From a virus, in the IMG/VR virus record IMGVR_UViG_3300044681_000293, positions 1 through 26,545 of that record: a stretch of 26,545 nucleotides of DNA; one strand, given 5' to 3'. Position numbers and translations under genes: made by a program. The notes beneath the pieces were generated by a model. It was not told where the DNA came from, searched no databases, and was given only the letters and a program-made list of their open reading frames with translations. This document shows, one piece after another, positions 477-14,516 of the stretch (positions within the stretch are counted from its first letter, which is position 1; each line of letters opens with the position of its first letter).

Positions 477-1946
477 TCAGAACTTGAAGGTCGTTTGGAT
501 GACTCCTCCCCAATTAGAAGAGTTACCAGCAAGACGTTGGTTGTCACTACCATAAATGATAGCAGGAGTGATGCTGATGTTATCAGACACTTGATACTTG
601 TAGAAGATTTCAAGAAGAGTGGACTTCTCAAGATTTTCACCAGTAGGTGCTTGACCGATAGCAACGCCAGCAGAGTTACCATCAACAAACACATCATCCC
701 AAGTCAGACCAGCAAACCAGGATTGACTGTTGGTAGCAGCACTTTGAGTACCACTTACAGTGTTCCAACCGTAACCACCAGAGATGGAGGGAACCCAACC
801 AGATTGAGTGGGTTGCCAGTATGCGTTGATAGCATAACCGTTAGAGGTTTGACCTGGAACCAGAGTACCTGATGCACCGTTCAGACCGTTGTAGGTACGA
901 ACACGGGTACCTTCTGTGCCATAACGATAACCGAAAGCAACACCATAGTTGTCACCACGATAACCGATCTGTGCCAGAGTGTTGAGAGCGCCAGACTTAT
1001 CAAACTCACCAGTGGAACTATCGCTACCGTTTTGGGCAACGTAGTTTACACCAGCAACAAGACCTTTCTTACCATACTGGATACCGAAACCAGAACCAGT
1101 TGCCTTGTTATACACACCAGGAGCACCTGCTACTTGGAAGAAGTCAAGAATGTTTGACTTGTAAGCAGAAGGAATCCATGCCATTTCAGTGTTACGAACC
1201 AGAGCACCAGCAGTAAGAGTGGTGCTACCGTTGAACACAGGGAACTGATAGTACAGACGGTCGATAACTACGTTGTTACCGTTTTCACCAGAGGTGTTGT
1301 CTGCCTTATCCAGTTTGAACAGAGAAGAACTGGAACCAAAAGGATCGCTACTGAAGTTAGCAGAACGCAAACGAGTACGAAGCAGATCCTTACCAGTGAA
1401 TGAAGTATCCAGGTTCAGACGCAAATCGTAATTGAATGCCGTGTGAGTGATGTCACCACCTTTGGTTTTGTAATCATCGACACCACCAAGAACGAAGGAT
1501 GCTTCACCACGCAGTTTGGTAGTGGTGGAGAATTGAGTTGCTTCCAGTTCAGAAACTTGTGCATCCAGACCATCAATACGACCTTTCAGTACAGCAAGCT
1601 CAGCACCAAACTCTTTGAGAAGTCCTTTCAGTTCATCAGTAACTTCGGTTACACGATCCAGGCAGGCATTCAGAAGTGCTGCTGCCTCCCAGCGGGTCAT
1701 CGCACGACCGCCACGGAAAGTGCCGTTAGGATAACCAGCAACGCAACCATAACGCTCTACGAGGTTGCTGAGTGCAGAGTATGCCCAATCAGTTGGTTGG
1801 ACATCAGAGAATTGAGTAACGCTTGTAACCTGCTCTGCAGAGGCATATTGGTTGACTGCTGCCATATTAAGGTCTGCGGCATTCGCAGCAACAGGAGCAA
1901 CCATTCCCAGAGCAACAGGTGCAAGCATCAGTTGTTTGAGTTTCAT
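477..1946 (-). CDS. Cyanobacterial-type SLH-domain outer-membrane porin
   Basis: This 489-aa protein has the whole layout of a cyanobacterial SomA/SomB or iron-uptake porin. It has a signal peptide (1-23, cleavage after ANA), one SLH domain (about 45-98: FSDVQPTDWAYSAL, then RYGCVAGYPNGTFRG and MTRWEAAALLNACLDR), a short coiled coil (about 100-136), and a long beta-barrel ending in F-K-F, the aromatic C-terminus used for barrel insertion. In the host, such porins are anchored to peptidoglycan through SLH and let solutes cross the outer membrane. The gene is visibly richer in G+C than its AT-rich neighbours, which suggests capture from the host. It has its own promoter (2015-2043) and terminator. 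There is no good SD, which is common for cyanobacterial genes. A role in nutrient uptake or surface remodelling during infection is inference. Confidence 0.93.
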   Translation of the reverse strand: MKLKQLMLAPVALGMVAPVAANAADLNMAAVNQYASAEQVTSVTQFSDVQPTDWAYSALSNLVERYGCVAGYPNGTFRGGRAMTRWEAAALLNACLDRVTEVTDELKGLLKEFGAELAVLKGRIDGLDAQVSELEATQFSTTTKLRGEASFVLGGVDDYKTKGGDITHTAFNYDLRLNLDTSFTGKDLLRTRLRSANFSSDPFGSSSSLFKLDKADNTSGENGNNVVIDRLYYQFPVFNGSTTLTAGALVRNTEMAWIPSAYKSNILDFFQVAGAPGVYNKATGSGFGIQYGKKGLVAGVNYVAQNGSDSSTGEFDKSGALNTLAQIGYRGDNYGVAFGYRYGTEGTRVRTYNGLNGASGTLVPGQTSNGYAINAYWQPTQSGWVPSISGGYGWNTVSGTQSAATNSQSWFAGLTWDDVFVDGNSAGVAIGQAPTGENLEKSTLLEIFYKYQVSDNISITPAIIYGSDNQRLAGNSSNWGGVIQTTFKF

Positions 1947-2037: not shown

Positions 2038-2043
2038 TGTCAA
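2015..2043 (-). promoter_or_regulatory. Strong sigma70-type promoter of the porin gene
   Basis: There is a -35 TTGACA (2038-2043), a 17-base spacer and a -10 TATACT (2015-2020), which leaves an untranslated leader of about 60 bases before the porin ATG at 1946. The TGA stop codon of the upstream glycosyltransferase gene (2040-2042) lies inside the -35 hexamer. Confidence 0.85.
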
Positions 2044-2837
2044 GAGTTTTTCTGCGTAGATGAATTTTCAGTTACTCTTCCAAGATATGGATCATAATTC
2101 ATATAATCTTTAATATCAATACTTGCACCATTTTGCTCCCAAAATTCTTTTAATGCATTATAGTTGCTGCGGTGAAAAGCATCAATATGATCTGGATGTA
2201 TAGAAGACCCCAGTTCAATTCCATATAAGAGAAGAGGAATTGAATAAGTATTACCGGAATTATAAATCAAATCATCGGCAACTGGACGTGGTTTAACTCC
2301 ATTATCAAGTTTATATTTTTCTCCTCGAACATGAAATTTTAAAAGTTTTTCTGCATGATGCCGATTAATCAAATAACAAGCGGTGGAAAAATCATTCACA
2401 AACCTCTTATGAAGTTTTACATGAATATCACCAGTACATATAATAGCAAGTTGGATTACATCCCAGTCATAAGGAATATGTGCATAAAAATCCTGCCAAG
2501 TAAAATTCCAATACTTAATTAGATTTAAATTGCAGTCATCTTCCATAAAAATTGCACAAGAACTATCAGAAGTTTCATACCAGTGCTTAATTGCCTTTAA
2601 GTGTGAAGTAATACATCCAATTTCTCCCGATGTCATCATTTCAGGATAACGACCAACAATGATATCACTTAGATCGTCATCTCTACCATCATATGCAGAT
2701 ATACGTGTATAATTTTCAATTTCCCAATACTTAAATTGCTCCTCCATATATTGCTTTCTTTCTGGTTGACCATCTAGATTTAAATAATATACTGGAGGAA
2801 TATTTTTAAGTTTATATTTTGATTTATTTTTATCCAT
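2040..2837 (-). CDS. GT25-family (LPS-type) glycosyltransferase
   Basis: This 265-aa protein carries the hallmarks of family GT25 (LgtB/LpsA and procollagen galactosyltransferase type): NLDGQPERK near the N-terminus (20-28), GEIGCITSHLKAI (71-83) and the acidic metal-site motif MEDD (98-101). Such enzymes transfer a sugar, often galactose or glucose, from a nucleotide sugar to LPS or a protein. There is no membrane segment, so it should act in the cytoplasm. It is the last gene of the 13-gene glycan operon, and its ATG shares one base with the stop of the GT15-like gene (TAATG). The donor and acceptor are unknown. Confidence 0.85.
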   Translation of the reverse strand: MDKNKSKYKLKNIPPVYYLNLDGQPERKQYMEEQFKYWEIENYTRISAYDGRDDDLSDIIVGRYPEMMTSGEIGCITSHLKAIKHWYETSDSSCAIFMEDDCNLNLIKYWNFTWQDFYAHIPYDWDVIQLAIICTGDIHVKLHKRFVNDFSTACYLINRHHAEKLLKFHVRGEKYKLDNGVKPRPVADDLIYNSGNTYSIPLLLYGIELGSSIHPDHIDAFHRSNYNALKEFWEQNGASIDIKDYMNYDPYLGRVTENSSTQKNS

Positions 2838-3625
2838 TAGACTGTATAAACTGCACCGTGCTGATATGTAAAACCTTTAACTGGAATAACATGTTCTGGT
2901 TCCATGAGAAGATTTACTCCAAGATATTTGATTGGAGCATCACCCCACCTCTTGGTATAAAACCCACCAGTTTGATCCAACTCATTATAGAATCTCATAT
3001 ACTCACTTGTCAAGAACCATGACACTTTACCTAACTCAAAGTTGGTATAGAACATCATTCCTTCTTCAATAAAGTTTTCTGGAATGAGTTCATTCACTGT
3101 TTGCCACAATCCTTCAATCACTTTTGGATTATCTTTTTGAATTGCAGGTTCTATATATCCATAATAACATCCAACCTCTTCTGCCCACTTAAAAATATCA
3201 TAGTTAAGTGGAGTATGAATAAAGGAATCAGCATCTAATCTTAAGTAATAATTATACTCTTTTATAACACTATTATTATAAAGTTCCCCAGAGAAAAATC
3301 TACACATATGACGGTATCCCATAGAGAATCCTGGATGTCCCCAGGCTACTGGACCATTTCCGTGAGTAGGATGAGGAAAGAATTCTGGGATTTGATCTAA
3401 GATTTCTTGAGGATAATCAGGAACTTCAAACTCGATAGTTTCATATCTAAGGTTCAAGTTTGTCTGAACCTTAGACTTATATTCTTCAAATGAATCTTCA
3501 CAAAATACTAATACATCAGTACCAGATGTATATGGTATGATATTTTCTTCCACTAATCTCAAAGACTTATTGAAATCTTCAATATCTTGATCTGAAGATC
3601 TTACAAGATAAAGGATACAATTCAT
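2837..3625 (-). CDS. GT15-like (Kre2/Mnt1) alpha-1,2-mannosyltransferase homologue
   Basis: This 262-aa protein matches the catalytic core of the fungal Kre2/Mnt1 mannosyltransferases (GT15) in motif content and order: YRHMCRFFSG (104-113), YYLRLDADSF (126-135, the DxD-like site), YTNFELG (193-199), then TGGFYTKRWGDAP (219-231) and an H-rich tail. The fungal enzymes transfer mannose from GDP-mannose in the Golgi; here the protein lacks a membrane anchor and is shorter. I chose the ATG at 3625, which overlaps the upstream stop as ATGA. A GTG start 12 bases earlier is possible. With GDP-mannose 3,5-epimerase in the same operon, a GDP-mannose or GDP-L-galactose donor is plausible but inferred. 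Confidence 0.78.
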   Translation of the reverse strand: MNCILYLVRSSDQDIEDFNKSLRLVEENIIPYTSGTDVLVFCEDSFEEYKSKVQTNLNLRYETIEFEVPDYPQEILDQIPEFFPHPTHGNGPVAWGHPGFSMGYRHMCRFFSGELYNNSVIKEYNYYLRLDADSFIHTPLNYDIFKWAEEVGCYYGYIEPAIQKDNPKVIEGLWQTVNELIPENFIEEGMMFYTNFELGKVSWFLTSEYMRFYNELDQTGGFYTKRWGDAPIKYLGVNLLMEPEHVIPVKGFTYQHGAVYTV

Positions 3626-5010
3626 ATCATCTGCCACTCTTTATAGGGAATCATATTATTGGTATGTGTTTGAGTAAATGATTTTGGATATATCACCTTA
3701 TCATTTGGTTGATTTGGATCTAAAAATGCAGACCAGAAACTAAAGGTGGATACATGCAAGATATGATATTCACATTCTACCATCTTTCTAAGTGATTGAA
3801 AAGCATCTCCAACAAAGATCTCAAAAGTTTGACTAAAGTTTTGGCGGAACCAACTGAGTTTGTTTTTTGCCATTCGATTATCATCGGAGAAGATGTAAAC
3901 AACTGCATTCTGAGGAACCATCATCAAAGCCTTTTCATAAAATTCATCATCAACATATCCATTTACATGATCATCGGCAGGTCTTGTACAAAATCTAAGA
4001 TGAAGTGATACTGTATTTGGTTTTGTTTGAGTTCCTAGTGATAGTTTTTCTCTTACATGATCAAGATGATCCACATTACCAAATCTAAACATATCATTTA
4101 CAACAAACTTAGTATCAAAGTTTGCTTGTAAATTGCCCATCCAATTTAAGTTTGGAAAACAAGAAGCAATATCCCTATGAGATCCATCGTGCCCTCCTAA
4201 CAATCTATCGGCATTATATGAAGATGGATATTTACCACCACCATTCCACAAGTCCCAAGTTCCAAATTTAGGTTCTGGTAGATTAAACTTCTTACAGAAA
4301 GAAATTACTTCTGCCATTTGGAAAAGATTATTTCCTAACCCACCATGAAGTGATGTGGTAATTGTTTCTTCCTTAAAGTCAACAGGAATAGCAACTGATT
4401 TTGGGGAACTATTAACACTTACATCGATACCCAGAAATCCCATCAAACATAATTGATATTCTGTGTTAGAAAACAACTCCACAGAATCTGCAATAATAAA
4501 ATTATTAGGATATCTTTCTTGAATCTCATTTGCAATCTGATAGTACTCATCCCAGTATCTTTCAGTTGCTTCAAATTCATCTTTAGAATCACTTAGGTTT
4601 GGAAACTGATCTACTGCATAACGATTGTGACCAAATCCTATAGATCTATCTTTTACATAACAAGGATTACGATATCCCCATGAAGTTGCGAGAGATTTAA
4701 TTGAATGTTCTCTCCTACCTCTCAGACACAAGAATTTCATATCTGGATGAAGTTCAAGAAACTCTGGAACATACTTCAGATATAAATGTGTAATGTTTGT
4801 AATAGTGTCTTGTAAGGAGACTCTACGAACTCTTTCCTCTTTAGATAAGGATTCTGAATCCCAAATCAAACCATTATCGTTCCAAGTTTCAAAACTATTC
4901 TGATACTTAGGGCCTCCACCTTTATATTTGATTGGCATATGGTTCTTGAGAATGTAATGTATCCTCAAGAATCCACATGCACCAGAACCAATAATATGAA
5001 ACTTACTCAT
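3622..5010 (-). CDS. Fusion: sulfotransferase-like domain + GT11-like fucosyltransferase domain
   Basis: This 462-aa protein has two parts. Residues 1-205 look like a sulfotransferase: a P-loop-like start (FHIIGSGACGFLR, 4-16) and a segment like the 3'-phosphate-binding region (FLCLRGRREHSIKSLATSW, 93-111). Residues 215-462 look like an alpha-1,2-fucosyltransferase of family GT11: HGGLGNNLFQMAE (222-234), SLHLRF (335-340), VYIFSDDN and STFSFWSAFL. The usual HxRRGD motif is replaced by HLRFCTRP, so donor use may differ. A clear SD (GAGAGGT) precedes the ATG, and it overlaps the upstream gene by 8 bases. The GT11 half is convincing; the sulfotransferase half is less certain. One chain could glycosylate and sulfate the same glycan. 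Confidence 0.7.
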   Translation of the reverse strand: MSKFHIIGSGACGFLRIHYILKNHMPIKYKGGGPKYQNSFETWNDNGLIWDSESLSKEERVRRVSLQDTITNITHLYLKYVPEFLELHPDMKFLCLRGRREHSIKSLATSWGYRNPCYVKDRSIGFGHNRYAVDQFPNLSDSKDEFEATERYWDEYYQIANEIQERYPNNFIIADSVELFSNTEYQLCLMGFLGIDVSVNSSPKSVAIPVDFKEETITTSLHGGLGNNLFQMAEVISFCKKFNLPEPKFGTWDLWNGGGKYPSSYNADRLLGGHDGSHRDIASCFPNLNWMGNLQANFDTKFVVNDMFRFGNVDHLDHVREKLSLGTQTKPNTVSLHLRFCTRPADDHVNGYVDDEFYEKALMMVPQNAVVYIFSDDNRMAKNKLSWFRQNFSQTFEIFVGDAFQSLRKMVECEYHILHVSTFSFWSAFLDPNQPNDKVIYPKSFTQTHTNNMIPYKEWQMI

Positions 5011-5818
5011 AAGATAGACCTCTCAGTTCATATTCCCAACGAACATCAGTATTCATTCTTGGTTTTCCATCTGCTTCTATAATCTGTCCAACAAATATTC
5101 CATACTCCATAGGTTCATGCTCTGGGAATGGACGACTATCTTGATTAGTTGGATAGATTTCTCTTAGTTGATTATATACTTCCCTTTCAAGATAGTTAAT
5201 CAATCCAACACCATAAGCATTTTGCCAGTGAACATGATCTCCGTTCTGATATGTTGGTTGTCCTACAACTTCAGAGTTCTTCCAGTGATCATGACATAGA
5301 TGATCAAACTTAATTAGAGGCCAAATGAAATTGTGTAAGACTGTTTGATCATCTTCCCTACGACTTGCAGAAGGATTGTCAAGATCTATTCTACCATATC
5401 TTTCATGAAACAACTTATTGTTTACTCCAAACATTCCAGCCATCATAGAGTATCCATGATTGTGACAGTCCCTCATCAGATGAACTGATTTATCAGACTG
5501 CATCCACTCATCAACTGCTCTACGTTCTCTCCAACTTAATCTACTATCACAGTCTCTACTAATCCAAAAATCTACACAGTCATCTACAAATGGTCTAAAC
5601 CTCCAGTTCAAACCATCATAAGAATTATTTCTTCTACAGATAAAGACCTCAGCATCATGTTCCTTAAGTTGCCAAACATATTCTTCAGGAACATCTTCGG
5701 CAACATAAAATCTTGCAATCCAATCAGGATAGATTTGTTTTGCAAGACGTGCGTTTTCTACTGCCCCAACACAATAAAGAGGATTATCTCCAAAAAGACT
5801 AAACGTTATCAGACGCAT
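5003..5818 (-). CDS. GT-A-like glycosyltransferase, DxD-containing, 271 aa
   Basis: The protein starts MRLITFSLFGDNPLYCVGA. It has a Rossmann-like first half, then WRFRPFVDDCVDFWISRDCDSRLSWRE, whose RDCDS looks like the metal-binding DxD of GT-A enzymes, followed by the acceptor-like segment RDCHNHGYSMMAGMFG. I put the start at the ATG at 5818, where the protein gains homology-like sequence and a TGGAAC element precedes it. The open frame continues to 5896 but there overlaps the methyltransferase gene heavily. The substrate is unknown. Its place between a methyltransferase and the sulfotransferase-GT11 fusion supports a role in glycan assembly. Confidence 0.68.
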   Translation of the reverse strand: MRLITFSLFGDNPLYCVGAVENARLAKQIYPDWIARFYVAEDVPEEYVWQLKEHDAEVFICRRNNSYDGLNWRFRPFVDDCVDFWISRDCDSRLSWRERRAVDEWMQSDKSVHLMRDCHNHGYSMMAGMFGVNNKLFHERYGRIDLDNPSASRREDDQTVLHNFIWPLIKFDHLCHDHWKNSEVVGQPTYQNGDHVHWQNAYGVGLINYLEREVYNQLREIYPTNQDSRPFPEHEPMEYGIFVGQIIEADGKPRMNTDVRWEYELRGLSYE

Positions 5819-6395
5819 ACCATGTTCCAAAATAACAATCAGCACTATGGAATCCTGATTCTGTTCCACCCTTAAAGATTTTACCAAAGTCACCAAGAAC
5901 TTCAGTAAAAGTTTCTTTAGTAATCAAATGAGGATGAGCAGTATCTACTGTACTGTTAATACTTTCAAAAACACGAATGACTTTAGAAGTTTTCTTTGCG
6001 ATTTCTAATTGTTGTTTGGGATCAATCACATGTTGAATAACATTAAAGAACCATGTTTCATCAACCTGCTCATCAATTTCCAAATCCTCATAAGGTCCCG
6101 CAATAATTTCTACTCCAATTTTTTCATAATCATTTCTAATCTCAGCAGGCCAACGATCGATCAGAGGTTCTACAAGAATACCTCTCTTAAAATTTCCTTT
6201 AGTGTTAAGAAGAGATCCTCTTGGACCACCACCAACTTCTACAATAACCTTATCCTTAAAGTCTTGCGTATAGTCAACCTCAAGATATTTTGCAATAATC
6301 ATGGATGCATGACTATATGCTTCTAGTCTAAGATCTTGATGATGCGTAAATTCAGTATCTTGTGCAAGATTCCAACGATCCAAATCAATTTTCAT
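5799..6395 (-). CDS. Class I SAM-dependent methyltransferase
   Basis: This 198-aa protein has motif I VIVEVGGGPRGS (50-61) for S-adenosylmethionine, an acidic end of beta-2 (LVEPL), and FFNVIQHVIDP as the post-II/motif IV region. It is short for the family but complete. In an operon of sugar-transfer genes the likely role is O-methylation of a sugar or nucleotide sugar; the acceptor is not visible in the sequence. Its ATG shares one base with the upstream stop (TAATG), and its end overlaps the next gene by 20 bases. Confidence 0.8.
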   Translation of the reverse strand: MKIDLDRWNLAQDTEFTHHQDLRLEAYSHASMIIAKYLEVDYTQDFKDKVIVEVGGGPRGSLLNTKGNFKRGILVEPLIDRWPAEIRNDYEKIGVEIIAGPYEDLEIDEQVDETWFFNVIQHVIDPKQQLEIAKKTSKVIRVFESINSTVDTAHPHLITKETFTEVLGDFGKIFKGGTESGFHSADCYFGTWYASDNV

Positions 6396-7210
6396 TAAAC
6401 TAATTCCCTGTTTTCAACAATCCTTCGTGTATTTATCAGATCTTTATGACGGTCATAAAAGATCTTTGTATTTTTATGATGTGCTTTGAGTAACCAAGGA
6501 GCAGGAGATCCAGTTTCTACTCTGGTTCCTCCCCACGAATCTTCACTTTCATAATCAATCCAGTATGCACCAACAACTTTACCAAGTTCTTTATATGCAC
6601 GATAACAAAGATCATGATCATCCATATCCTGAGGAGCAAATGCCCCATCAAGATAGTTCAGTTTCTTGAGATCTTCATGATCAATCATCAAAGGCCCACG
6701 ATTAACAGAACAACGAACGGCAAACACATCTCGTGGAAGTCCTTGATTTCTATCAGCATGATCAACATGATCTACAATATCACACCAACAGGTATCAAGA
6801 TCTTCTTCCATCCCTAGATGCTTACTATTAGTATTGAACACCCAGTTATGTGCAGTTCTTGAAGTTACAGCAAAGACATCATCAAATGCTTTAAAAGGTT
6901 TTTCCATCCTAATGTTCCAACCTTTCTCTTTGATAATCATATCATCCTGAACGATAATAATCTTATCACCCTTTGCTATTTTCATCCCAAGATTATTGGC
7001 AGTCGTTTCAAAGACATCTGGAGCATAAATGAACTTTCTATCAACTGGAGTTCCACTAAGAGTATCCCAGATAACTTTTTCTGAGTTATCCGTGCATCCA
7101 TCAATCACAACAATAAGTTCATAAGGTTCTGTTGTGTTAAGAACGATACCCTCGATTACCTTATCAATCAACCACTCCTTATTGTGAACGGTAAGAACTA
7201 TACTATGCAT
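6395..7210 (-). CDS. GT2-family glycosyltransferase
   Basis: This 271-aa protein has the standard GT2 layout: SIVLTVHNKEWL (3-14), VVIDGCTDNS (34-43, nucleotide binding) and IIIVQDDM (84-91, the DxD position). The second half (APQDMDDHDLCYRAYKELG) has the ED/HD-type acceptor and catalytic region expected near the end of the domain. It has no membrane helices, so it is a soluble cytoplasmic transferase, not a polymerase-exporter. It overlaps its upstream neighbour by 8 bases. The sugar is unknown. Confidence 0.87.
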   Translation of the reverse strand: MHSIVLTVHNKEWLIDKVIEGIVLNTTEPYELIVVIDGCTDNSEKVIWDTLSGTPVDRKFIYAPDVFETTANNLGMKIAKGDKIIIVQDDMIIKEKGWNIRMEKPFKAFDDVFAVTSRTAHNWVFNTNSKHLGMEEDLDTCWCDIVDHVDHADRNQGLPRDVFAVRCSVNRGPLMIDHEDLKKLNYLDGAFAPQDMDDHDLCYRAYKELGKVVGAYWIDYESEDSWGGTRVETGSPAPWLLKAHHKNTKIFYDRHKDLINTRRIVENRELV

Positions 7211-7934
7211 TTTTGATCCTCATCAAGAATGAATCAATTTCCCTACCAAAACCCCTTCCACCTCGTTCATACCAGTAATCATAATCACACTCTACATAGT
7301 TTCTATATTCTGGTCCTCCAACAGTAAGTCCCTCACGAATTGCAAGATTAGTCAGAACGCTTTGATCGTTTCTATGGGCAACAAATCCAGGCAACTCTTC
7401 ACCAAGAACACTGGGTTCATTATTAATAATCTGATAGTCGGTGCAGCAGTTCAACCATTCAGAAACTACATCTATTGATTCTTGACATACTTTCCAAACC
7501 ATAAATCCAACTTCCAATTGATTGGAGTTGTAATAATCTTCCTCATCACAGTTCATCTTAATGAAGCAATCTCGTTTTGTGTAGTGGCCATTAAGATTGT
7601 TTCCAATAAGAAGTAAACAATCATCATCAGAAACTGTTGACTCCACATAGGATTTTAATCCTGGAGAGAACATATCTCCACAGTCTGAGTAGATAATAAA
7701 GTCACCATCATTTGCAGATTTCATCACATCAAGAATGAAATAAGGTTTCCAAATCCACCATCCAGCACCTGTAGATTCGTCAAGGATCTGTTTATTATCT
7801 TGATAGAAATCTGTCTTTTCTAAGTTCTCTCTGTTGAATGGATGGTGAATATATCCCTCACTATGTGTTTGATGAAGAAACTTTTGTTGGTCTGCAAACT
7901 TTTCGTCTGCATAGGTTACAAGATGCCAATTCAT
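7203..7934 (-). CDS. Glycosyltransferase-like protein (GAGWWIWKPY / YSDCGD type), 243 aa
   Basis: The protein contains GAGWWIWKPYFIL (56-68), FIIYSDCGD (79-87, a metal-site-like DxxxD) and AHRNDQSVLTNLA near the end. This combination is typical of a poorly studied bacterial and viral GT-A-type group found in capsule and LPS loci. There is no signal peptide or membrane segment. The ATG overlaps the upstream stop as ATGA. It probably transfers a sugar, but donor and acceptor are unknown, and I would not give it a CAZy family from reading alone. Confidence 0.65.
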   Translation of the reverse strand: MNWHLVTYADEKFADQQKFLHQTHSEGYIHHPFNRENLEKTDFYQDNKQILDESTGAGWWIWKPYFILDVMKSANDGDFIIYSDCGDMFSPGLKSYVESTVSDDDCLLLIGNNLNGHYTKRDCFIKMNCDEEDYYNSNQLEVGFMVWKVCQESIDVVSEWLNCCTDYQIINNEPSVLGEELPGFVAHRNDQSVLTNLAIREGLTVGGPEYRNYVECDYDYWYERGGRGFGREIDSFLMRIKNA

Positions 7935-8812
7935 TTAATTCTCTCCTTCACATAATCTTGATTATTATAGTATTCAATTAACTGTTCCTTTGTGAGACTC
8001 TTCAAGTATTCCCACAACTGATTGTTGTTTTGCATATGTGGATTATGATACCAGGAGTTTTGGGTTCTTTGGTGTTCCAGATGGTATGCATGATTATCAA
8101 CTCTACCAATATTATAACCAAGAACTTTCCATCTGTGATGCCTTTCTACATCTTCTGGTGCATAAGCAATAAATCCTTCGTTCTCAAGATAACCATCAAT
8201 ATACACTTGACGATTAAAGAACTGAACCATTCCATATTCAGCCCAACCTAATCCTTGATTGCTAGGATAATAAAAGAATCGATCATCAAAACAAGTGCAG
8301 TTGTATCCAGATCCAATAAATCTAGAAACAAAATCATCATTCTCAAAGTTATCCATATCCTCTTGAGTTTCAATAGTAAATCCAAGATTTACTTTTCTCT
8401 CACCATGATTACCAAAACGATATGGATATACTACATCACATTCTCCTTGCAGCATTTGAACTGCTTGAGTATAAGAATCTAATGGAAGAATAATATCAGT
8501 GTCATAATTAACTACGATTTCGGTAGATGCTTCCATCACCATATCATTAAGAACTTTGGTTCGATGAAACGAATCATCAGTTCTAGTTTCATCTTCAAAG
8601 ATGTGACGAAGATTACTCGTATCAACTAATCGTTTGATAATAGGTAGTGCATACTCTTCAAACCTATGTTCAGAGTCCACTTCCTTAATGATTACATTTG
8701 TATCAAAGTGATGAAGAAGATATGAAGTTGTAAGGATTACATTACGAAGCCTATCTCCAGTATCAATCCTTAAAGGAATAATAAAGGTAGTATTCTTTAA
8801 GTCAGTTTTCAT
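7931..8812 (-). CDS. GT-A glycosyltransferase with galactosyltransferase-like C-terminal region
   Basis: This 293-aa protein starts like GT2 enzymes (TFIIPLRIDTGDRLRNV), has the DxD as NYDTD (102-106), and then LGWAEYGMVQFFNRQVYIDGYLENEGFIAYAPEDVERHHR compressed around 188-227. The pattern W-x-E, Gly-Phe and P/E-D-x-E-R is that of the N-terminal galactosyltransferase/chondroitin polymerase C-region (Glyco_transf_7C), which binds the acceptor. Galactose or GalNAc transfer is the family expectation, not something shown here. It overlaps both neighbours by 4-11 bases. Confidence 0.78.
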   Translation of the reverse strand: MKTDLKNTTFIIPLRIDTGDRLRNVILTTSYLLHHFDTNVIIKEVDSEHRFEEYALPIIKRLVDTSNLRHIFEDETRTDDSFHRTKVLNDMVMEASTEIVVNYDTDIILPLDSYTQAVQMLQGECDVVYPYRFGNHGERKVNLGFTIETQEDMDNFENDDFVSRFIGSGYNCTCFDDRFFYYPSNQGLGWAEYGMVQFFNRQVYIDGYLENEGFIAYAPEDVERHHRWKVLGYNIGRVDNHAYHLEHQRTQNSWYHNPHMQNNNQLWEYLKSLTKEQLIEYYNNQDYVKERIK

Positions 8813-9611
8813 TAATCATTCTCCATTCTTCAGGGAACAAATCTTTAGTAGATTTATCTATATTGTTGGGACCAAACCATTTATCTGGATAGATAACTGT
8901 TTTATTTTTATTTTGAGATAACCAAGCACCCCACCAAGAGAATGTAGAGTTGGCAATAATGTAGTCAGAACACAAAGTCATTAAACACATATCAACATAA
9001 GGATGTCCAGTTTCTACAACTAAGAACCTATCGTTTTCAAACAATTTTTGTTCCTTACACCACTTAGGATCATCAGAGAATATAACTACCTGTCTATCAG
9101 AATCAAATTCATTCAGAGCATTCTCATAATAACTAAGAGAAAGATTATAGTGATTACCAGAATTAATCAAGAAATCACCTCTACGAATATGTAAAGCAAT
9201 CGGATTATCTAATAAAGGTTTTGCTTCCTCACAGGCATCATAATACTCTTTCTTAAAGGTGAAATCTTTTCGGATATCATTTTCTATGTGCTTGAAGTAC
9301 TTCTCACTCTGAAAGTAACCAACCAGGGAAACCCCATCAGGACAATTATTAAAGAGATCCTCATCGAAAGAAAAATCAACTTCATTCCGAGAAGCATCAT
9401 CCATAAGAAATCCAACACTATCTGGTTGAATATCAAAAGCATCAAACAATTCAATCTTGAGAGTGTTTCCTAAAGAGTCCTTGACAGCATTATCATGTTG
9501 AGGAATAGTGAACTGATATCCTCTATTCCTAGCAACTCCTTTTACTGCAGCATATTGAAACATCTGGTTTCCCAGTTGTCCCATTCTACCAAGATAGTTT
9601 AATCCAATCAT
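8802..9611 (-). CDS. GT11 alpha-1,2-fucosyltransferase-like enzyme (copy 1)
   Basis: This 269-aa protein is a full-length GT11 enzyme: GQLGNQMFQYAA (11-22), the donor-binding HIRRGD (141-146), VVIFSDDPKWCK and ANSTFSWWGAWL, ending with PDKWFGP. GT11 enzymes usually transfer L-fucose from GDP-L-fucose to galactose. No GDP-fucose synthase is in the window, but a GDP-mannose 3,5-epimerase-like gene is, and GDP-L-galactose differs from GDP-L-fucose only by a 6-hydroxyl, so L-galactose transfer is possible. It overlaps the next GT11 gene by 26 bases; the two are diverged tandem copies. Confidence 0.9.
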   Translation of the reverse strand: MIGLNYLGRMGQLGNQMFQYAAVKGVARNRGYQFTIPQHDNAVKDSLGNTLKIELFDAFDIQPDSVGFLMDDASRNEVDFSFDEDLFNNCPDGVSLVGYFQSEKYFKHIENDIRKDFTFKKEYYDACEEAKPLLDNPIALHIRRGDFLINSGNHYNLSLSYYENALNEFDSDRQVVIFSDDPKWCKEQKLFENDRFLVVETGHPYVDMCLMTLCSDYIIANSTFSWWGAWLSQNKNKTVIYPDKWFGPNNIDKSTKDLFPEEWRMINEN

Positions 9612-10428
9612 CGGGAAGTAAGTCTTTTGTGTCGTTATCTTTTAATAGTTGAGGACCAAACCAAGGATCTGGTGCGACCACAGGATTTGTACGAGGATTT
9701 TGTAACCATGCACCCCACCAACTCAAAGTGCTCGGTGAAATAATAGCACCATTACACAAACTCATCAAGCACAAGTCAGTATATGGAATGAAAGAATTAC
9801 GGTAAACACCATCACCCTCCATACACTTATGAGAATATTGCTCAACACTCTCGTTAATCAAGAATCTCTCTCCAGAGAAAAACTCTTGCTCCTTACACCA
9901 AGCAACATCATCACTACAAATAAGGACCATAGCATCGTCATCAAAGTACTCAAGTGCCTTTGAGTAGTAATCAAATGTTGGAACTGGATGAAGATGTTCT
10001 CTACCTACATTATCGCCACGACGAACATGGAGAAAGATAACCTTTTCAAACTGATCAATAAACTCTCTACAAGGTTTTTGAATCTGATCAATAAACTCAA
10101 AGTCCTCACGGATTTCATATTCAATATGCTTGAAATATTTCTCACTCTGAAGATAACCATCTAAGTTCATGTTGTCCTGAAAGGTATTAAACAGGTCTTC
10201 ATCAAAATGAAAATGGGACTCATCCCGAGTAGGATAAGGCACCTGACCAACATTCTTTAGATGTTTGAGTTTGAATGGATGATGTATTCCATAGTTTGCA
10301 GTTCTTGCATTATCTTCAGGAATACACCATTCATATCCATGTTTTGCTGCTATTCCACGGAGAGCAGCATATTGGAAGAGTTGATTTCCAAATCTTCCAT
10401 TTACTCCCAGTCGATTATATCCAATCAT
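9586..10428 (-). CDS. GT11 alpha-1,2-fucosyltransferase-like enzyme (copy 2)
   Basis: This 280-aa protein has GRFGNQLFQYAALRG (11-25), HVRRGD (134-139), MVLICSDDVAWCKEQ and SPSTLSWWGAWL. Together with copy 1 it forms a tandem pair that shares YFKHIE and WFGP segments but differs at most positions, so the duplication is old and the copies may use different acceptors. The ATG overlaps the stop of the dehydrogenase gene by 4 bases. Donor GDP-L-fucose or GDP-L-galactose is inferred from the family and the operon. Confidence 0.9.
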   Translation of the reverse strand: MIGYNRLGVNGRFGNQLFQYAALRGIAAKHGYEWCIPEDNARTANYGIHHPFKLKHLKNVGQVPYPTRDESHFHFDEDLFNTFQDNMNLDGYLQSEKYFKHIEYEIREDFEFIDQIQKPCREFIDQFEKVIFLHVRRGDNVGREHLHPVPTFDYYSKALEYFDDDAMVLICSDDVAWCKEQEFFSGERFLINESVEQYSHKCMEGDGVYRNSFIPYTDLCLMSLCNGAIISPSTLSWWGAWLQNPRTNPVVAPDPWFGPQLLKDNDTKDLLPDDWIKLSW

Positions 10429-11579
10429 AGATTTACCACGAAGTATGGTTCAGTAATGTTCTCTTGCTTATCCACAAACTTAACTCTATCACCATAAGAA
10501 GTTGTCATGTAATCATAAATTTGATCAGTAACTTTCTTGTCATTATGAATATAGACAGTATATCCCCGATCAAGAAGATCTAAGCACAAACGATATTGCT
10601 GACTTTCTGTGAGAATATCAGTTCCTTTTTTATAAGTAATGGAATCAAAGTAAAAAGGTTTGTTGTTTAAATTCATCATCTCAAAATAATCGCATACAAA
10701 TGTTGCATGTTGATTATTAATTTCGTCAGTTACTGTACCAAGATTATATTGCAATCCAACCTTTTTAGTAAATGCAGCAAAAGATCTGTTGTCTCTAGGA
10801 AGGCATGGTCCACCATACCCAAATCCATAACCAAGATATTTTCTACCAATACGACTATCAGTTCCAACTGCGTTCAAGACAGAACTAACCTCATCTCCAC
10901 AACCAGCATGATGAAGAACATCTCCAAGCATGTTTGCATAGCTAATCTTAGTTGTTAAGAAACAGTTAATAGCAATCTTAGTGATCTCTGCTGCTGTTGT
11001 TGACATAGAACAAACGATCGCACGAGTTGTTTGAATCTTTTCATACAGTCTACGAATGTCAGAAATAATCTGATCATTATCGGAGAATGGATATGCTCCA
11101 AGAAGAACCATGTCAGCAGTACGAAGATCATTAATAATTGATCCTTGAGCAATAAACTCTGGGTTATAGAAAACTTTTATATTACTTGGAAGTTGCTTCC
11201 TGAAGTTATCACAATCCCCAGGATTGGTAGTGCAGCCTACGACAAAGTATTTCGTCTTAGTTACATCTTGGAAATCGTGTACAACTTGCCATACAGCAGA
11301 GACATCATAAGAACCATCTTCGAGAGAAGGTGTTGCGACAAGAGTGTAAATCAAATCACACTCTTCGATCACTTCCTTGTTGTTGGTTGTTGCTCTAAAG
11401 TTCTTAGCAACCTTAAGAAGGTTTTCTACCTCTGGTTCATGAGTCTTGATCTTTCTTTCGTTCAAATCATTCACATAATCCTCTCGGATATCTGAAACAA
11501 GAACGTCATACCCAGCTGCTTCACACAACAGGGCAAAACAAATACCAAGTCTGCCAGCACCAATTACGCCAATTTTCAT
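10425..11579 (-). CDS. Nucleotide-sugar 6-dehydrogenase (UDP-glucose/GDP-mannose dehydrogenase family)
   Basis: This 384-aa protein has the NAD-binding GVIGAGRLG (4-12), YNPEFIAQG (138-146), the ITKIAIN helix with the conserved Lys and Asn (199-205), and the catalytic cysteine in GYGGPCLPRDNRSF (Cys259). These enzymes oxidise C6 of a nucleotide sugar to the uronic acid with two NAD+. The usual STVPPGT is CTTNPGD and the C-terminal domain is short, so I cannot say whether UDP-glucose, UDP-HexNAc or GDP-mannose is the substrate. It overlaps NadE by 4 bases, and that neighbour makes its cofactor. Confidence 0.88.
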   Translation of the reverse strand: MKIGVIGAGRLGICFALLCEAAGYDVLVSDIREDYVNDLNERKIKTHEPEVENLLKVAKNFRATTNNKEVIEECDLIYTLVATPSLEDGSYDVSAVWQVVHDFQDVTKTKYFVVGCTTNPGDCDNFRKQLPSNIKVFYNPEFIAQGSIINDLRTADMVLLGAYPFSDNDQIISDIRRLYEKIQTTRAIVCSMSTTAAEITKIAINCFLTTKISYANMLGDVLHHAGCGDEVSSVLNAVGTDSRIGRKYLGYGFGYGGPCLPRDNRSFAAFTKKVGLQYNLGTVTDEINNQHATFVCDYFEMMNLNNKPFYFDSITYKKGTDILTESQQYRLCLDLLDRGYTVYIHNDKKVTDQIYDYMTTSYGDRVKFVDKQENITEPYFVVNL

Positions 11580-12385
11580 AGTTTGAATGTAGGAATAGGA
11601 TTCATTTTATGTTGATTTTGTTGATTGAACTTTGCGTATTGCTTAATCGCAACCTTTTGTTCTTCGGTAATAGGAATACCTTTCCACTGTGTAAGAGTTT
11701 GTGCATACTCAATTCCACCTTTCATAATTTCGGAATCCATTACCCACTCAAGCATATCATACGACGTTCCGATTTGATCTTCATCAGTTCTTCCGTCATC
11801 CCAAAGACCATCAGTAGGAGAGGCATCAATAATGAGTTGATCTACACCAAAATGCCTACCAAGTTCCCATACTTCAGTCTTATAGAGATCTGCGATTGGA
11901 GCAATATCAACTCCACCATCACCATATTTAGTATAAAATCCTACACCATAATCTTCAACTTTGTTACCAGTACCAACAACAATACCACCAACAGAAGTAG
12001 CAACCTGATAAAGAGTCATCATACGAAGTCTGGAACGACTATTAGCAAGTGAGTGAGTGTTAGTACCAAACTCATTCATCGTAAATTTGAATGTTTCAAA
12101 TACTCTTGTCAGATCAAACTTGTCAACGATTACATTACTAAAGTTTGATTGAAGCCACTCAAGGTGAGCATCAGAAAGATTTTCCTGTTCTTCTTTCTGG
12201 TGGATTGGCATACCTATAGCATACACAGGAAGACCTGTCTTTGCGGCAAGTGTAGATGATACTGCAGAATCAATACCACCCGATACACCAATCACAAATG
12301 ATTTAATGCTGTACTTACGTGCGTAATCTTTTAACCAAAATACGATACGATCTTCAAGTTCTGAATAATCTTTAATGCGGTTCAT
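11576..12385 (-). CDS. nadE: NAD+ synthetase, ammonia-type
   Basis: This 269-aa protein has the ATP-pyrophosphatase PP-loop SGGIDS (35-40), VVGTGNKVEDYG, KYGDGGVDIAPIADLYKTEV, then PTDGLWDDGRTDEDQIG. These are the signature elements of NadE, which amidates nicotinate adenine dinucleotide to NAD+. It lacks the amidase domain of glutamine-dependent forms, so it should use ammonia. I chose the ATG at 12385; a TTG nine bases upstream overlaps the previous stop codon (TTGA) and could be the coupled start. Inside a glycan operon it may sustain NAD+ for the dehydrogenase and epimerase, or for host metabolism in infection. Confidence 0.9.
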   Translation of the reverse strand: MNRIKDYSELEDRIVFWLKDYARKYSIKSFVIGVSGGIDSAVSSTLAAKTGLPVYAIGMPIHQKEEQENLSDAHLEWLQSNFSNVIVDKFDLTRVFETFKFTMNEFGTNTHSLANSRSRLRMMTLYQVATSVGGIVVGTGNKVEDYGVGFYTKYGDGGVDIAPIADLYKTEVWELGRHFGVDQLIIDASPTDGLWDDGRTDEDQIGTSYDMLEWVMDSEIMKGGIEYAQTLTQWKGIPITEEQKVAIKQYAKFNQQNQHKMNPIPTFKL

Positions 12386-12390
12386 GATAA

Positions 12391-13443
12391 TCAAATAATT
12401 GCGTTTACTTGTTCTTTAATCCATGCATAAGTTTTAGAGATTCCCTCTTCAAGAGTCATGGAGTAATCCCATCCTAACTCTTTTCGGATAATATCGTTGT
12501 TACTATTGCGACCACGAACACCAAGAGGAGCATCAAGTTTGTGCTGTCTCTTTACAGGAACTCCAGCAACTTTAGAAACAGTATCAACCAGTTGATTGAT
12601 GGTCACCATTTCTTCTGAACCGATATTGACAGGTCCGATGAAGTTGCTGTCCATCATACGACGAGTTGCTTCAATACACTCATCAATGTAAAGGAATGAA
12701 CGAGTCTGCTTACCATCACCCCAAACATCAATTGTGCCACCTTCTTCAGGAAGATATGCTACTTTGCGGCAGATTGCTGCGGGTGCCTTTTCCCTTCCAC
12801 CTTCCCATGTTCCTTCAGGTCCAAAGATATTATGATACCTAGCAACCCGAACAGGGATCCCATAATTACGATGATAAGCGAAAAACAACCGCTCTGAGAA
12901 CAATTTCTCCCAACCATATTCAGAATCTGGATTAGCTGGATATGCTGAGTCTTCACGGCAATCAGGATTATCTGGATCTAGTTGATTATACTCTGGATAC
13001 ATACAAGCAGATCCAGAATAGAATATTTTAGTTTTATTTACTTCCTTAAAATCGTTCAGTTGCCTTTGTGCTTCAAGAACATTCAGATTAATAGTTGCGG
13101 AGTTATGCATAATATCAGCATCATTCTCGCCAGTGAAGACGAAACCAGCACCCCCCATATCAGCAGCAAACTGATAAATTTCATCAAAAGTATCAATATA
13201 CTGAGATGCTACAAAATGATAAAAGTTGCCAAGATATCCTTTAAATTGAAGAACTCTTTCGACGAAGTTCATATCTCTTAGGTCTCCCTGAATGAACTCA
13301 TGTGCTTCAGTTTCAGAGAACTCTGGACGCTTAAGATCAACTCCACGCACCCAATATCCTTCTGAACGAAGTCTTTTTACCATATGACTTCCAATAAACC
13401 CGCCAGCACCAAGTACAAGTGCTGTTTTTTTATAATCACTCAT
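12391..13443 (-). CDS. GDP-mannose 3,5-epimerase-like enzyme (extended SDR)
   Basis: This 350-aa protein closely follows plant GDP-mannose 3,5-epimerase: GAGGFIG (12-18), AADMGGAGF (93-101), SGSACMYPE with the catalytic Cys (Cys147), YGWEK (Tyr176, Lys180), FGPEGTWEGGREKAPAAICRK, WGDGKQTRSFLYIDEC and VRGRNS. The family uses tightly bound NAD+ to turn GDP-D-mannose into GDP-L-galactose and GDP-L-gulose. Between residues about 66 and 88 there is an extra stretch (around FKGYLGNFYHF) that I do not expect from the plant enzyme. It is the first gene of the glycan operon, with a promoter and an upstream terminator at 13469-13503. Confidence 0.88.
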   Translation of the reverse strand: MSDYKKTALVLGAGGFIGSHMVKRLRSEGYWVRGVDLKRPEFSETEAHEFIQGDLRDMNFVERVLQFKGYLGNFYHFVASQYIDTFDEIYQFAADMGGAGFVFTGENDADIMHNSATINLNVLEAQRQLNDFKEVNKTKIFYSGSACMYPEYNQLDPDNPDCREDSAYPANPDSEYGWEKLFSERLFFAYHRNYGIPVRVARYHNIFGPEGTWEGGREKAPAAICRKVAYLPEEGGTIDVWGDGKQTRSFLYIDECIEATRRMMDSNFIGPVNIGSEEMVTINQLVDTVSKVAGVPVKRQHKLDAPLGVRGRNSNNDIIRKELGWDYSMTLEEGISKTYAWIKEQVNAII

Positions 13444-13468
13444 AAATTACATTAAACTCTTATTATAT

Positions 13469-13497
13469 ATTATACAAAAAAAGATGAGTTTATGCAA
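13469..13497 (-). promoter_or_regulatory. Putative sigma70-type promoter of the glycan operon
   Basis: A -10 TATAAT (13469-13474) lies 17 bases from TTGCAT (13492-13497), a weak -35 that keeps only TTG. A second TATAAT overlaps at 13462-13467. It lies about 26 bases upstream of the ATG of the epimerase gene, the first of 13 co-directional genes without a visible internal terminator. Confidence 0.6.
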
Positions 13498-13503
13498 CCC
13501 ATC
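13476..13503 (-). terminator. Rho-independent terminator before the glycan operon
   Basis: The minus strand has GATGGGTT, loop, AACTCATC (one G-T pair), followed by seven T. It ends the unit of small proteins upstream and overlaps both the stop of the 19-aa ORF and the operon promoter. Confidence 0.72.
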
Positions 13504-13549
13504 TCCATAACTCAGTCTCTCCATTTTTTTTATCTTTACCAATTGGCAT
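13490..13549 (-). CDS. Possible 19-aa peptide
   Basis: The short frame reads MPIGKDKKNGETELWRWVA and stops just inside the terminator stem. It sits between the 78-aa membrane protein and the terminator, with no competing frame. I see no convincing SD. It is recorded because small peptides of this kind fill similar gaps in the window; it may not be translated. Confidence 0.35.
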   Translation of the reverse strand: MPIGKDKKNGETELWRWVA

Positions 13550-13585
13550 ATTTAATACGGGTCATTGACTCCACCAGTATAAGTT

Positions 13586-13822
13586 TTAAGTCATTCCAGG
13601 ACTAGTATAAAGTTGAATTAATTTTGATATTTCGGAGACACCAAAAAAAGCACATAAAAATAAAACATCCCAAAGTTTTAATTTAATTGCAAAAGGTATT
13701 GTAAATAATCCCCCAATACATTTAAGCACTAAACCAAATTTAAATTCTCCCCATAACATAACTTGATATCCTATTATGAGGAGAGTATTTCCAATCCACC
13801 GAAGTAAATCAGATTTTGACAT
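13586..13822 (-). CDS. Small membrane protein, 78 aa
   Basis: There are two to three hydrophobic stretches: LLRWIGNTLLIIGYQVMLW (about 6-24), FGLVLKCIGGLFTIPFAI (29-46) and LWDVLFLCAFFGV (50-62), with Lys between them. It is an inner-membrane protein by composition. An AAAGG element lies about 11 bases before the ATG. It follows the 71-aa ORF by 36 bases and probably shares its transcript. No known family; a holin cannot be claimed from sequence alone. Confidence 0.7.
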   Translation of the reverse strand: MSKSDLLRWIGNTLLIIGYQVMLWGEFKFGLVLKCIGGLFTIPFAIKLKLWDVLFLCAFFGVSEISKLIQLYTSPGMT

Positions 13823-13858
13823 ATATTATTGCCTTTAAAGTCTTTATTGACTATTTAC

Positions 13859-14074
13859 TCAGGCAACTTCTACCGATTCAAGATCTTGATAAAGATATTC
13901 CATAAGCATTTCATAATCGTCCAGAGGATCACCAGAAAATACTACACCTTCATTTTCATAATAACGACGAACCTTTTTATAAAGTTTCGGATTCTTTACA
14001 TCAAGATAAAATTCGCCATTTGCTGCACCACGAAGGGTTTGAACGTCTTTCTTGAATTTTGATGTGAGAGTCAT
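13859..14074 (-). CDS. Small conserved-type phage protein, 71 aa
   Basis: The protein starts MTLTSKFKKDVQTLRGAANG, has a Tyr/Lys-rich middle (FYLDVKNPKLYKKVRRYYE) and an acidic C-terminus (DDYEMLMEYLYQDLESVEVA). I chose the ATG at 14074 because a consensus promoter lies just upstream (14097-14125); the frame stays open to 14125, but the extra 17 residues would lie inside the promoter. It is typical of cyanomyovirus short hypothetical proteins, and the function is unknown. Confidence 0.75.
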   Translation of the reverse strand: MTLTSKFKKDVQTLRGAANGEFYLDVKNPKLYKKVRRYYENEGVVFSGDPLDDYEMLMEYLYQDLESVEVA

Positions 14075-14096
14075 TGTTTTGTGTATTGACCTTAGT

Positions 14097-14125
14097 ATTA
14101 TAAGGGATTGTGGTGTAGAAGTCAA
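14097..14125 (-). promoter_or_regulatory. Sigma70-type promoter (TTGACT-N17-TATAAT)
   Basis: The -35 is TTGACT (14120-14125) and the -10 is TATAAT (14097-14102), with exactly 17 bases between. It drives the 71-aa ORF and the membrane protein after it. Confidence 0.82.
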
Positions 14126-14147
14126 GGCAGACAGTCTTGAGAGTGTC

Positions 14148-14375: not shown

Positions 14376-14397
14376 TTTTTCATAAAGTAATTTATAA

Positions 14398-14473: not shown

Positions 14474-14487
14474 AGAACATAGAATTA

Positions 14488-14516
14488 ATTATAATACTTC
14501 TTAAACGGATTGTCAA
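14488..14516 (-). promoter_or_regulatory. Perfect-consensus sigma70 promoter (TTGACA-N17-TATAAT)
   Basis: The -35 TTGACA lies at 14511-14516 and the -10 TATAAT at 14488-14493, with 17 bases between. The TGA stop codon of the 154-aa gene (14513-14515) lies inside the -35 box. It drives tRNA-Pro and the antitoxin-like gene. Confidence 0.9.

Follow-up and report, generated by a model that had tools for sequence, protein, structure and literature searches.

Glycan cassettes of T4-like cyanophages are already known, from S-SSM7, P-SSM2, S-SCSM1, P-TIM68, S-SCSM2R and others. Sullivan et al. (2010; PMC3037559) place the lipopolysaccharide (LPS) clusters of cyanophages near tRNA genes, report large examples in S-SSM7 and P-SSM2, and leave open whether such clusters function or represent 'stuffer DNA'. 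We analyzed the IMG/VR record IMGVR_UViG_3300044681_000293, which forms the window in its entirety (26,545 bases) and is presumably a genome fragment. At positions 2040-13443 it carries a block of 13 open reading frames (ORFs), all on the minus strand and almost gapless. This block is likely to be functional and to belong to a T4-like cyanophage, acting in the cytoplasm as a module for glycan decoration that would be transcribed leftward from a composite terminator/promoter and would decorate the envelope of the infected host. New here are the transferase set (a GT15 protein, a putative sulfotransferase fusion and two families that Pfam does not name), a documented linkage between a NadE-like protein and a dehydrogenase, and the control region.

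Layout of the cassette and comparison with known clusters

A T4-like cyanophage origin is indicated by the 20 best phage matches over the window, all of them Synechococcus phages, and by the neighboring nrdA and nrdB genes. S-SRM01 matches 23% of the query, with 77% identity, and the match spans nrdA/nrdB, a porin gene and the genes between them; in the S-SRM01 stretch that was fetched, the counterpart of the cassette is limited to a weak match to the 7203-7934 protein (36 bits). With nucleotide-sugar enzymes and glycosyltransferases near tRNA genes in a T4-like genome, the block has the hallmarks of the LPS/glycan clusters of T4-like cyanophages.

The genes are read in the order epimerase, NadE-like protein, nucleotide-sugar dehydrogenase, two GT11 proteins, galactosyltransferase-like protein, 7203-7934 protein, GT2, methyltransferase-like protein, GT-A-fold protein, putative sulfotransferase-GT11 fusion, GT15 and GT25. 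The ORF at 5003-5896 probably starts at ATG 5818, and that at 2837-3637 probably at ATG 3625. With starts corrected in this way, 11 of the 12 gene junctions overlap, by 1-26 nt. The twelfth, between epimerase and NadE, is a 4-nt overlap if a TTG start is used and a 5-nt gap if an ATG start (12385) is used; the latter is favored because the seven relatives compared begin with MNRI. The original prediction of 13 genes at 2040-13443, nearly all overlapping and forming a cyanomyovirus glycan cassette with a single transcriptional direction, was thus borne out.

S-SSM7 carries a relative of the block (SSSM7_253-265; GU071098), likewise with 13 genes on one strand, which runs from a GDP-mannose epimerase homolog through NadE, dehydrogenase and GT11s to a final GT25. 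Homologs are shared for the epimerase, NadE, the dehydrogenase, GT11 (three copies), the 7931-8812 protein and GT25. The S-SSM7 cluster differs in its own annotations, namely a further epimerase, a methyltransferase and a 'putative transferase', and the stretch that was fetched contains no homolog (E 1e-5) of the GT2 protein, the 7203-7934, 5799-6395 and 5003-5818 proteins, the fusion or GT15. S-SCSM1 was published with 13 genes for the cell wall, among which are a GDP-mannose 3,5-epimerase and several glycosyltransferases, fucosyltransferases included; the genes described are scattered over ORF64-198, and S-SCSM1 is absent from the 15 listed rows with a NadE of the window's clade. In P-TIM68, S-SCSM2R, Sf-FS3 and Bellamy, NadE adjoins the dehydrogenase (in Bellamy, one gene away) among glycosyltransferases, as in the window, but the transferase sets differ and the Bellamy dehydrogenase belongs to another lineage. 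The block had originally been described as larger and more varied than is usual in such phages. This was overstated, because S-SSM7 carries a 13-gene relative; the 13 cell-wall genes of S-SCSM1 and the large clusters of S-SSM7 and P-SSM2 also speak against it.

Conservation of gene order and selection

All 13 genes (more than 100 bits each) were found in the same order and on the same strand in at least 11 other contigs (L003, L006, L007, L009, L010, L020, L026, L027, L029, L032 and L049), in a comparison that excluded loci L372-L393. The epimerase is half-length in L026, and the methyltransferase is split in L032. Twelve of the genes are present in L034, 11 in L015 and 12 in L019, the latter two arrays ending at contig ends. 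Gene order across relatives had been proposed as a check on the original prediction, and pseudogenisation in relatives as an outcome that would count against it; the order was kept, and no pseudogenisation was seen apart from the split methyltransferase of L032.

Ratios of nonsynonymous to synonymous substitution rates (dN/dS) were calculated for the window and 14 loci. Over all usable pairs, after removal of those with less than 80% coverage or with dS outside 0.05-2, the median per gene ranged from 0.066 to 0.177. In close pairs, where saturation matters less (dS 0.1-0.8, at least 80 synonymous sites), it ranged from 0.035 to 0.089. Every one of the 13 genes is under strong purifying selection.

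These data bear on whether the block could be genome-filling 'stuffer' or decaying host DNA without function. Composition and order do differ between phages, and the doubt raised in the literature on cyanophage LPS clusters applies here as well. However, dN/dS is far below 1 for each gene, the full order is kept in at least 11 other contigs, and one split gene was seen, the methyltransferase of L032. As the order is conserved and all genes are under purifying selection, we consider the block neither decaying nor stuffer DNA; this explanation is contradicted by dN/dS, and we regard it as highly improbable.

Linkage between the NadE-like protein and the dehydrogenase

The second gene (11576-12394, ATG start probably 12385) encodes a protein of the NH3-dependent NAD synthetase family (PF02540, E 9.9e-47; TIGR00552 above its cut-off). 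By sequence it belongs to NadE in both family and active site: the SGGxDS motif is retained, and all nine residues that bind ATP or nicotinic acid adenine dinucleotide (NaAD) in NadE were invariant in 103 of 103 phage NadE sequences.

A scan of viral sequences in IMG/VR gave 254 relatives; the analysis used the 80 best loci (70 distinct NadE sequences). All 80 contained a dehydrogenase-family gene, which was adjacent to NadE in 53, separated from it by one gene in 22 and by two genes in 3, and located about 7 kb upstream in 2. Among phage records, 15 rows had a NadE with at least 50% identity, corresponding to 11 distinct records after merging of RefSeq doubles (some of them near-copies). All 11 carry the dehydrogenase, 10 of them directly adjacent and Bellamy with one gene between. 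The 36 records with the dehydrogenase include none of the 25 other NadE rows listed (8 further records stand outside this list). In the reverse direction, NadE was present in 51 of 57 newly fetched dehydrogenase loci, 26 of which (by hand count) provide no independent test because their contigs belong to the NadE set; the other 31 include 25 with NadE. Among the six loci without NadE, five have the dehydrogenase at or near a contig end; the sixth, L230, is a genuine miss.

As a control we took the epimerase, which had at least 600 relatives. Using the best 80 of these, 76 loci were newly fetched, 29 were dropped for flanks shorter than 4 kb, and 47 with at least 4 kb on each side were kept. 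Neither gene was found in 40 of these, both in 4, the dehydrogenase only in 3 and NadE only in none. NadE therefore tracks the dehydrogenase and not the epimerase, and the genes around it suggest a place in sugar metabolism.

In a tree with 31 of the 103 phage sequences (72 were thinned out by hand), phage NadE proteins, among them those from HTVC008M (a SAR11 phage) and LR756502 (a phage of 642 kb), formed one group with 98/96 support beside the NadE of Bacteroidota, which are the nearest cellular relatives (48-56% identical). A search of 395 genomes with a strict limit gave a single match in each of 52 matching Bacteroidota genomes, and in two of the genomes examined (G002 and G003) this was the only full-length family member. 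None of 30 such loci had a dehydrogenase within 1.5 kb, so that the Bacteroidota genes look like housekeeping genes. The partner dehydrogenases, on the other hand, fall into two deep lineages, with NadE-less phage dehydrogenases on either side. The dehydrogenase tree (without L291, which was too short) requires two changes, and 0% of the bootstrap trees had one; L238 and L263 join with no more than 90/70 support. Bellamy and its relatives carry one dehydrogenase type and P-TIM68 the other, even though their NadE proteins group together (93/98). Most simply, one dehydrogenase would have replaced another while the pair was kept, which would argue for a functional link between the two proteins. 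Phage NadE proteins also have clade-specific residues, S118, Q127, G134 and V137, that are common to HTVC008M and LR756502. S118 and Q127 lie near the NaAD-binding R119 (S118 directly beside it) and may be a weak hint of a changed NadE.

Two further observations concern related genes. L083, a contig of a Saprospiraceae genome bin (UBA7328), has a phage-type NadE-dehydrogenase cassette and is probably a virus contig binned with a bacterium. Genes of about 144 codons annotated as 'NAD synthetase' lie near nrd in S-SSM7 (L311, 4026-4463), S-SRM01 (L001, 14040-14471) and P-TIM68 (L144, 3653-4087), and their products are far shorter than the 242-position NAD_synthase model.

A predicted promoter within a terminator hairpin precedes the cassette

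Upstream of the epimerase, on the same strand, we found a composite terminator/promoter (13469-13506). A hairpin occupies 13506-13480, with a -35 box, TTGCAT (13497-13492), in its loop; a T-run lies in the 17-nt spacer, and the -10 box TATAAT is at 13474-13469. Such composites were present in 58 of 129 distinct epimerase upstream regions (including that of the window) compared with 9 of 4000 random 150-nt stretches from the same loci. Stem covariation was assessed in 61 of 130 upstream regions picked without requiring a hairpin. Their own arms gave at least 6 uninterrupted pairs in 57 of the 61, versus 174 of 1157 combinations in which an arm was swapped with that of a locus having a different 5' arm; as the sequences are related, neither these nor the composite counts are independent events. 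Seventeen different 6-nt arms occur.

With a sigma-70-like early promoter and a terminator hairpin ahead of a module, the composite matches, at the sequence level, the composite promoter-terminator elements (PeSLs) of T4-like phages, which stand before exchangeable modules. PeSLs go back to Arbiol (2010) and Comeau (2014), as cited in a paper on S-PM2 (PMC4503421); this paper states that they are much less dense in S-PM2 than in other T4-like phages. In the window the -35 box lies in the hairpin loop, and in some relatives the element follows a wcaG RNA, points in which it may differ from PeSLs. A second composite (417-454, minus strand; TTGACA-17-TATTAT, 27-nt hairpin, -10 box from 422) lies beyond the porin gene, so that cassette and porin are bracketed by two such elements; this is at most compatible with a PeSL-type shuffling of modules by recombination.

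PMC2864571 describes the wcaG RNA motif (RF01761) as a candidate riboswitch that occurs in DNA of marine origin and of cyanophages, usually ahead of genes for exopolysaccharides. Of 8 related loci searched with a covariance model, 7 had it shortly before the epimerase, in front of the composite or of the site where the composite would stand; in the window it is degenerate or absent. By string matching, 132 epimerase upstream regions were divided into 37 with wcaG and composite, 26 with the composite only, 7 with wcaG only and 62 with neither. No known riboswitch was found in the window, either at gathering scores over its whole length or at lax scores over 13300-14200. In L003 (2782-2886) and six other loci the wcaG RNA stands just before the terminator that doubles as a promoter, and it could act as an attenuator there.

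Control of the 13 genes from one promoter region, as originally predicted, is plausible and fits the composite at 13506-13469. A general promoter consensus scan did not add to this, with 52 sites versus a shuffle mean of 52.5; it was set aside as evidence since it gave no excess over shuffles, and the TTGCAT box of the composite falls under its limit.

Predicted functions of the enzymes

The first gene (12391-13443; PF01370, E 6.6e-38) encodes an epimerase of the GDP-mannose 3,5-epimerase (GME) type. Its best solved relative is 2c59 (E 4.5e-81; next protein type E 1.6e-22), the plant GME, and conservation extends around the catalytic SAC, YGxEK and GGREKAP motifs. Identity to the best 30 phage records was 65-82%. 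Being closest to a characterised GME and retaining these motifs, the protein qualifies as a GME by sequence. The third gene (10425-11579; PF03721, E 1.7e-28; PF00984, E 2.8e-22) encodes a nucleotide-sugar 6-dehydrogenase of the UDP-glucose/GDP-mannose dehydrogenase family. Among the NCBIfam-type families listed, the broad subfamily TIGR03026 alone exceeds its cut-off. PDB scores were highest for 3gg2 (122.6 bits), followed by the UDP-glucose dehydrogenase 3vtf (114.9) and the GDP-mannose dehydrogenase 1mfz (85.2), so that UDP-glucose would be a likelier substrate than GDP-mannose.

The transferases are assigned with varying precision. Two GT11 fucosyltransferase-family proteins are encoded at 9586-10428 (PF01531, E 1.4e-18; phrog_2644, E 1.1e-101) and 8802-9611 (PF01531, E 4.5e-28; phrog_2644, E 1.4e-112), a GT2 glycosyltransferase at 6395-7210 (PF00535, E 6.7e-11) and, as the last gene, a GT25 glycosyltransferase at 2040-2837 (PF01755, E 3e-11; phrog_2835, E 9e-127), which is present in 46 of 82 loci. 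The putative galactosyltransferase-like protein at 7931-8812 is weakly assigned: it matches phrog_15655 (E 3.9e-97, function unknown) and the galactosyl transferase phrog_1721 (E 1.1e-5), and the Pfam family GT7C falls below its cut-off (E 0.029). The conserved protein at 7203-7934 (dN/dS 0.061) is a transferase by context only; the PDB profile search gave a phosphodiesterase match (E 2.2e-4 over about 65 residues) that is uninformative. The GT-A-fold glycosyltransferase-like protein at 5003-5818 had no match in a PDB profile search. Its AlphaFold model (pLDDT 73.4, moderate confidence) matched glycogenin 3t7n in Foldseek (E 5.8e-7) and the fucosyltransferase WrtF with a VIA Z of 12.5, tied with mannosylglycerate synthase and others. 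For the fusion at 3622-5010, PF01531 (E 9.3e-9) identifies a C-terminal GT11/fucosyltransferase part. A PDB sequence-profile search gave chance-level matches only, and the AlphaFold model, of low confidence (pLDDT 53.8), suggests an N-terminal sulfotransferase fold, a candidate for a PAPS-dependent enzyme (Foldseek, 6b53, E 1.7e-4; VIA, residues 1-222, TPST2, Z 10.4), and a POFUT1-like part at residues 319-444 (Z 8.9). The probable class I S-adenosylmethionine (SAM) methyltransferase at 5799-6395 was recognized through its family, A5: with E values up to 1 allowed, Methyltransf_23 was hit by 5 of the 17 members (best E 8.9e-5). Pfam gave nothing for the protein of the window, whose PDB profile points to 3cc8 (E 0.014).

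The GT15 (Kre2/Mnt1-type) mannosyltransferase-family protein (2837-3625) scored 114.1 bits against a cut-off of 25 for PF01793 (E 1.1e-32). All three solved relatives are Kre2/Ktr-type mannosyltransferases, including 1s4n (E 9e-22) and Ktr4 7boo (E 4e-20), and the alignments to these two run over an RWGDAP motif. TKRWGDAP is invariant in 13 aligned sequences. With Pfam score and core in agreement, the protein can be assigned to GT15, a mainly fungal family. GT15 was held by 25 IMG/VR loci, with no match among 50,697 phage records (tblastn, E 1e-5) and none in PHROGs. It was also absent from 296 genomes of the phylum to which a Flavobacteriaceae bin belongs, 299 genomes of the phylum that includes the Blastochloris locus, 3 other genomes (one also among the 299) and 14 named controls. 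This search recovered 3 of 3 virus records used as positive control; its sample held one cyanobacterial control genome, with further cyanobacteria and eukaryotes outside it. A literature search on phage GT15 returned fungal work only.

Compared with the original gene list, domain searches thus agree for the epimerase, the NAD synthase family, the dehydrogenase, the two GT11 proteins, GT2, the GT11 half of the fusion, GT15 and GT25; predicted structures contribute the sulfotransferase half and the GT-A fold, and the methyltransferase stands through its family. A count of nine transferases was not fully supported, as we infer the ninth for a protein (7203-7934) that matches no informative family in Pfam, PHROGs, NCBIfam or PDB.

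Neighboring genes

An outer-membrane porin gene (477-1946, minus strand; OprB, PF04966, E 8e-14; SLH, PF00395, E 1e-9) adjoins the cassette. It has a promoter-like site of its own at 2043-2015 in the direction of the block, and it turned up in 20 of 82 loci, among them S-SRM01; many of the loci are truncated. On the other side lie two small genes, 13586-13822 (PHROG 2318) and 13859-14125 (PHROG 552), the first preceding the cassette in 42 of 82 loci and the second in 54, and a gene for a Phd/YefM-like antitoxin without a recognized toxin neighbor (14148-14375; likewise ahead of the cassette in 45 of the 82). The window also has 25 tRNA genes on the minus strand (7-78 and 14397-19787), with Pro(tgg), Val(tac) and Met(cat) repeated; all but one of the 25 separate the cassette from the nrd genes. 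Within the tRNA region lies a ferritin-like gene (16323-16757); an S-SRM01 gene of equal length is annotated as a DNA starvation protection protein.

Proposed role and alternatives

In the proposed scheme, the epimerase would convert host GDP-mannose to GDP-L-galactose/L-gulose, and the dehydrogenase would turn a host nucleotide sugar into a uronic acid, using NAD+ supplied by its NadE-like partner. The soluble GT11, GT2, GT15 and GT25 enzymes and the further transferases would assemble a short branched oligosaccharide, to be capped by the methyltransferase and the sulfotransferase half. The acceptors would be made elsewhere and would most likely be LPS/O-antigen intermediates of the infected cell; the adjoining phage porin would fit a remodelling of the envelope, for example masking of receptors against superinfection. 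What the sequences show directly is the set of genes, their preserved order, the selection on them, the link of NadE to the dehydrogenase and the architecture of the promoter. We infer substrates, linkages and sugar number from the families only, and acceptor and purpose are likewise deduced. The chemistry originally predicted (GDP-L-galactose/L-gulose, uronic acid, methyl, sulfate) is probable, judged from families and folds alone.

Pfam searches found no initiation, flippase, export or polymerase family among the 13 proteins, and none of them has a transmembrane helix (the value of 1.72 for the dehydrogenase reflects its N-terminal Rossmann strand-helix). Because the enzymes are soluble and families for initiation, flipping and polymerization are missing, the block would act on something that is already cytoplasmic. 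The 13 proteins, in a record that covers part of a genome, do not have the makeup of a self-sufficient Wzx/Wzy- or ABC-type O-antigen or capsule locus. Likewise, the block is not the complete donor-making and glycan-assembly set that was first claimed, as GDP-mannose and the dehydrogenase substrate come from elsewhere and initiation, flippase and polymerase functions are absent.

We prefer the host envelope as the target because an outer-membrane porin adjoins the cassette. Chloroviruses glycosylate their capsid protein in the cytoplasm, and the phage might similarly place the glycan on its own virion proteins rather than on the host surface. The soluble appearance of all 13 enzymes, the lack of export or polymerization families and the retention of GT25 in more than half of the loci would agree with this, but no virion gene was recognized in or beside the block in this window, the neighbor is a porin, and collagen-like repeats, possible acceptors for GT25, are confined to 3 of 394 loci, a single contig accounting for two of these. 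We therefore regard decoration of the virion as rather unlikely; collagen-like virion proteins as GT25 acceptors were rejected, the window having no (GXY)9 repeat. Several observations nevertheless weigh against a host-directed module controlled and linked as proposed here. Virion proteins would suit soluble enzymes equally well as acceptors, the 7203-7934 protein has no Pfam, PHROG or NCBIfam match, and the model of the fusion is of low confidence. Internal promoters within the block are possible; the composite scan gave a further, weaker hit within the epimerase gene itself (-10 at 12876, 8-bp stem), which is probably due to chance; nearly half of the epimerase upstream regions have neither a wcaG-like string nor a composite; and no wcaG RNA is recognizable in the window, where its stretch is shortened and scores fall below threshold. 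As to the NadE linkage, the dehydrogenases of L004 and L005 are the two that lie far upstream, four phage dehydrogenases have no NadE nearby (L230, L238, L263 and L291), long branches meet in the dehydrogenase tree, and the reverse search shares contigs with the NadE set.

Whether the NadE-like partner still makes NAD+ for the NAD+-dependent dehydrogenase is, in our judgment, an even call. The NadE chemistry, an ATP-dependent amidation of a carboxylate, would also allow an altered amidotransferase that adenylates and amidates the nucleotide-linked uronic acid made by the dehydrogenase, yielding a uronamide donor instead of NAD+. Such a reaction would explain the linkage, since amidation turns a nucleotide-linked uronic acid into a uronamide, and it would agree with a NadE clade that was never seen without a dehydrogenase in the kept IMG/VR loci and the distinct phage records, with the absence of the dehydrogenase record from the other listed NadE rows, with the epimerase control, with a pair that apparently survived a swap between two dehydrogenase lineages, and with the clade-specific residues. 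We nonetheless favor NAD synthetase activity over amidation because the nine residues are invariant and the nearest relatives, the single-copy Bacteroidota proteins with no dehydrogenase nearby, resemble true NadE; the papers listed by literature searches also showed no precedent for uronate amidation by a NadE-type enzyme. Amidation is thus a tentative alternative that we lean away from. The wider proposal is doubtful: a new nucleotide-sugar enzyme, derived from a Bacteroidota-type NAD synthetase and amidating the carboxylate made by its partner to give uronamide donors, would have spread together with that partner among cyanophages, as well as to a SAR11 and a huge phage, and outlasted exchange of the dehydrogenase, in a cassette with its promoter inside a terminator and, in some relatives, behind a wcaG RNA. 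A possible role of phage NadE in NAD+ repair as a counter-defence was considered and set aside; the gene tracks dehydrogenases.

Together, the selection on every gene answers the question of function versus filler, for this block, in favor of function. The NadE-dehydrogenase pair provides a simple, assayable prediction for a gene that is usually annotated as NAD metabolism. The presence of GT15 in a phage may point to genes exchanged with eukaryotes or with some source not yet sampled, and a promoter set within a terminator offers a possible means of controlling and exchanging glycan cassettes.

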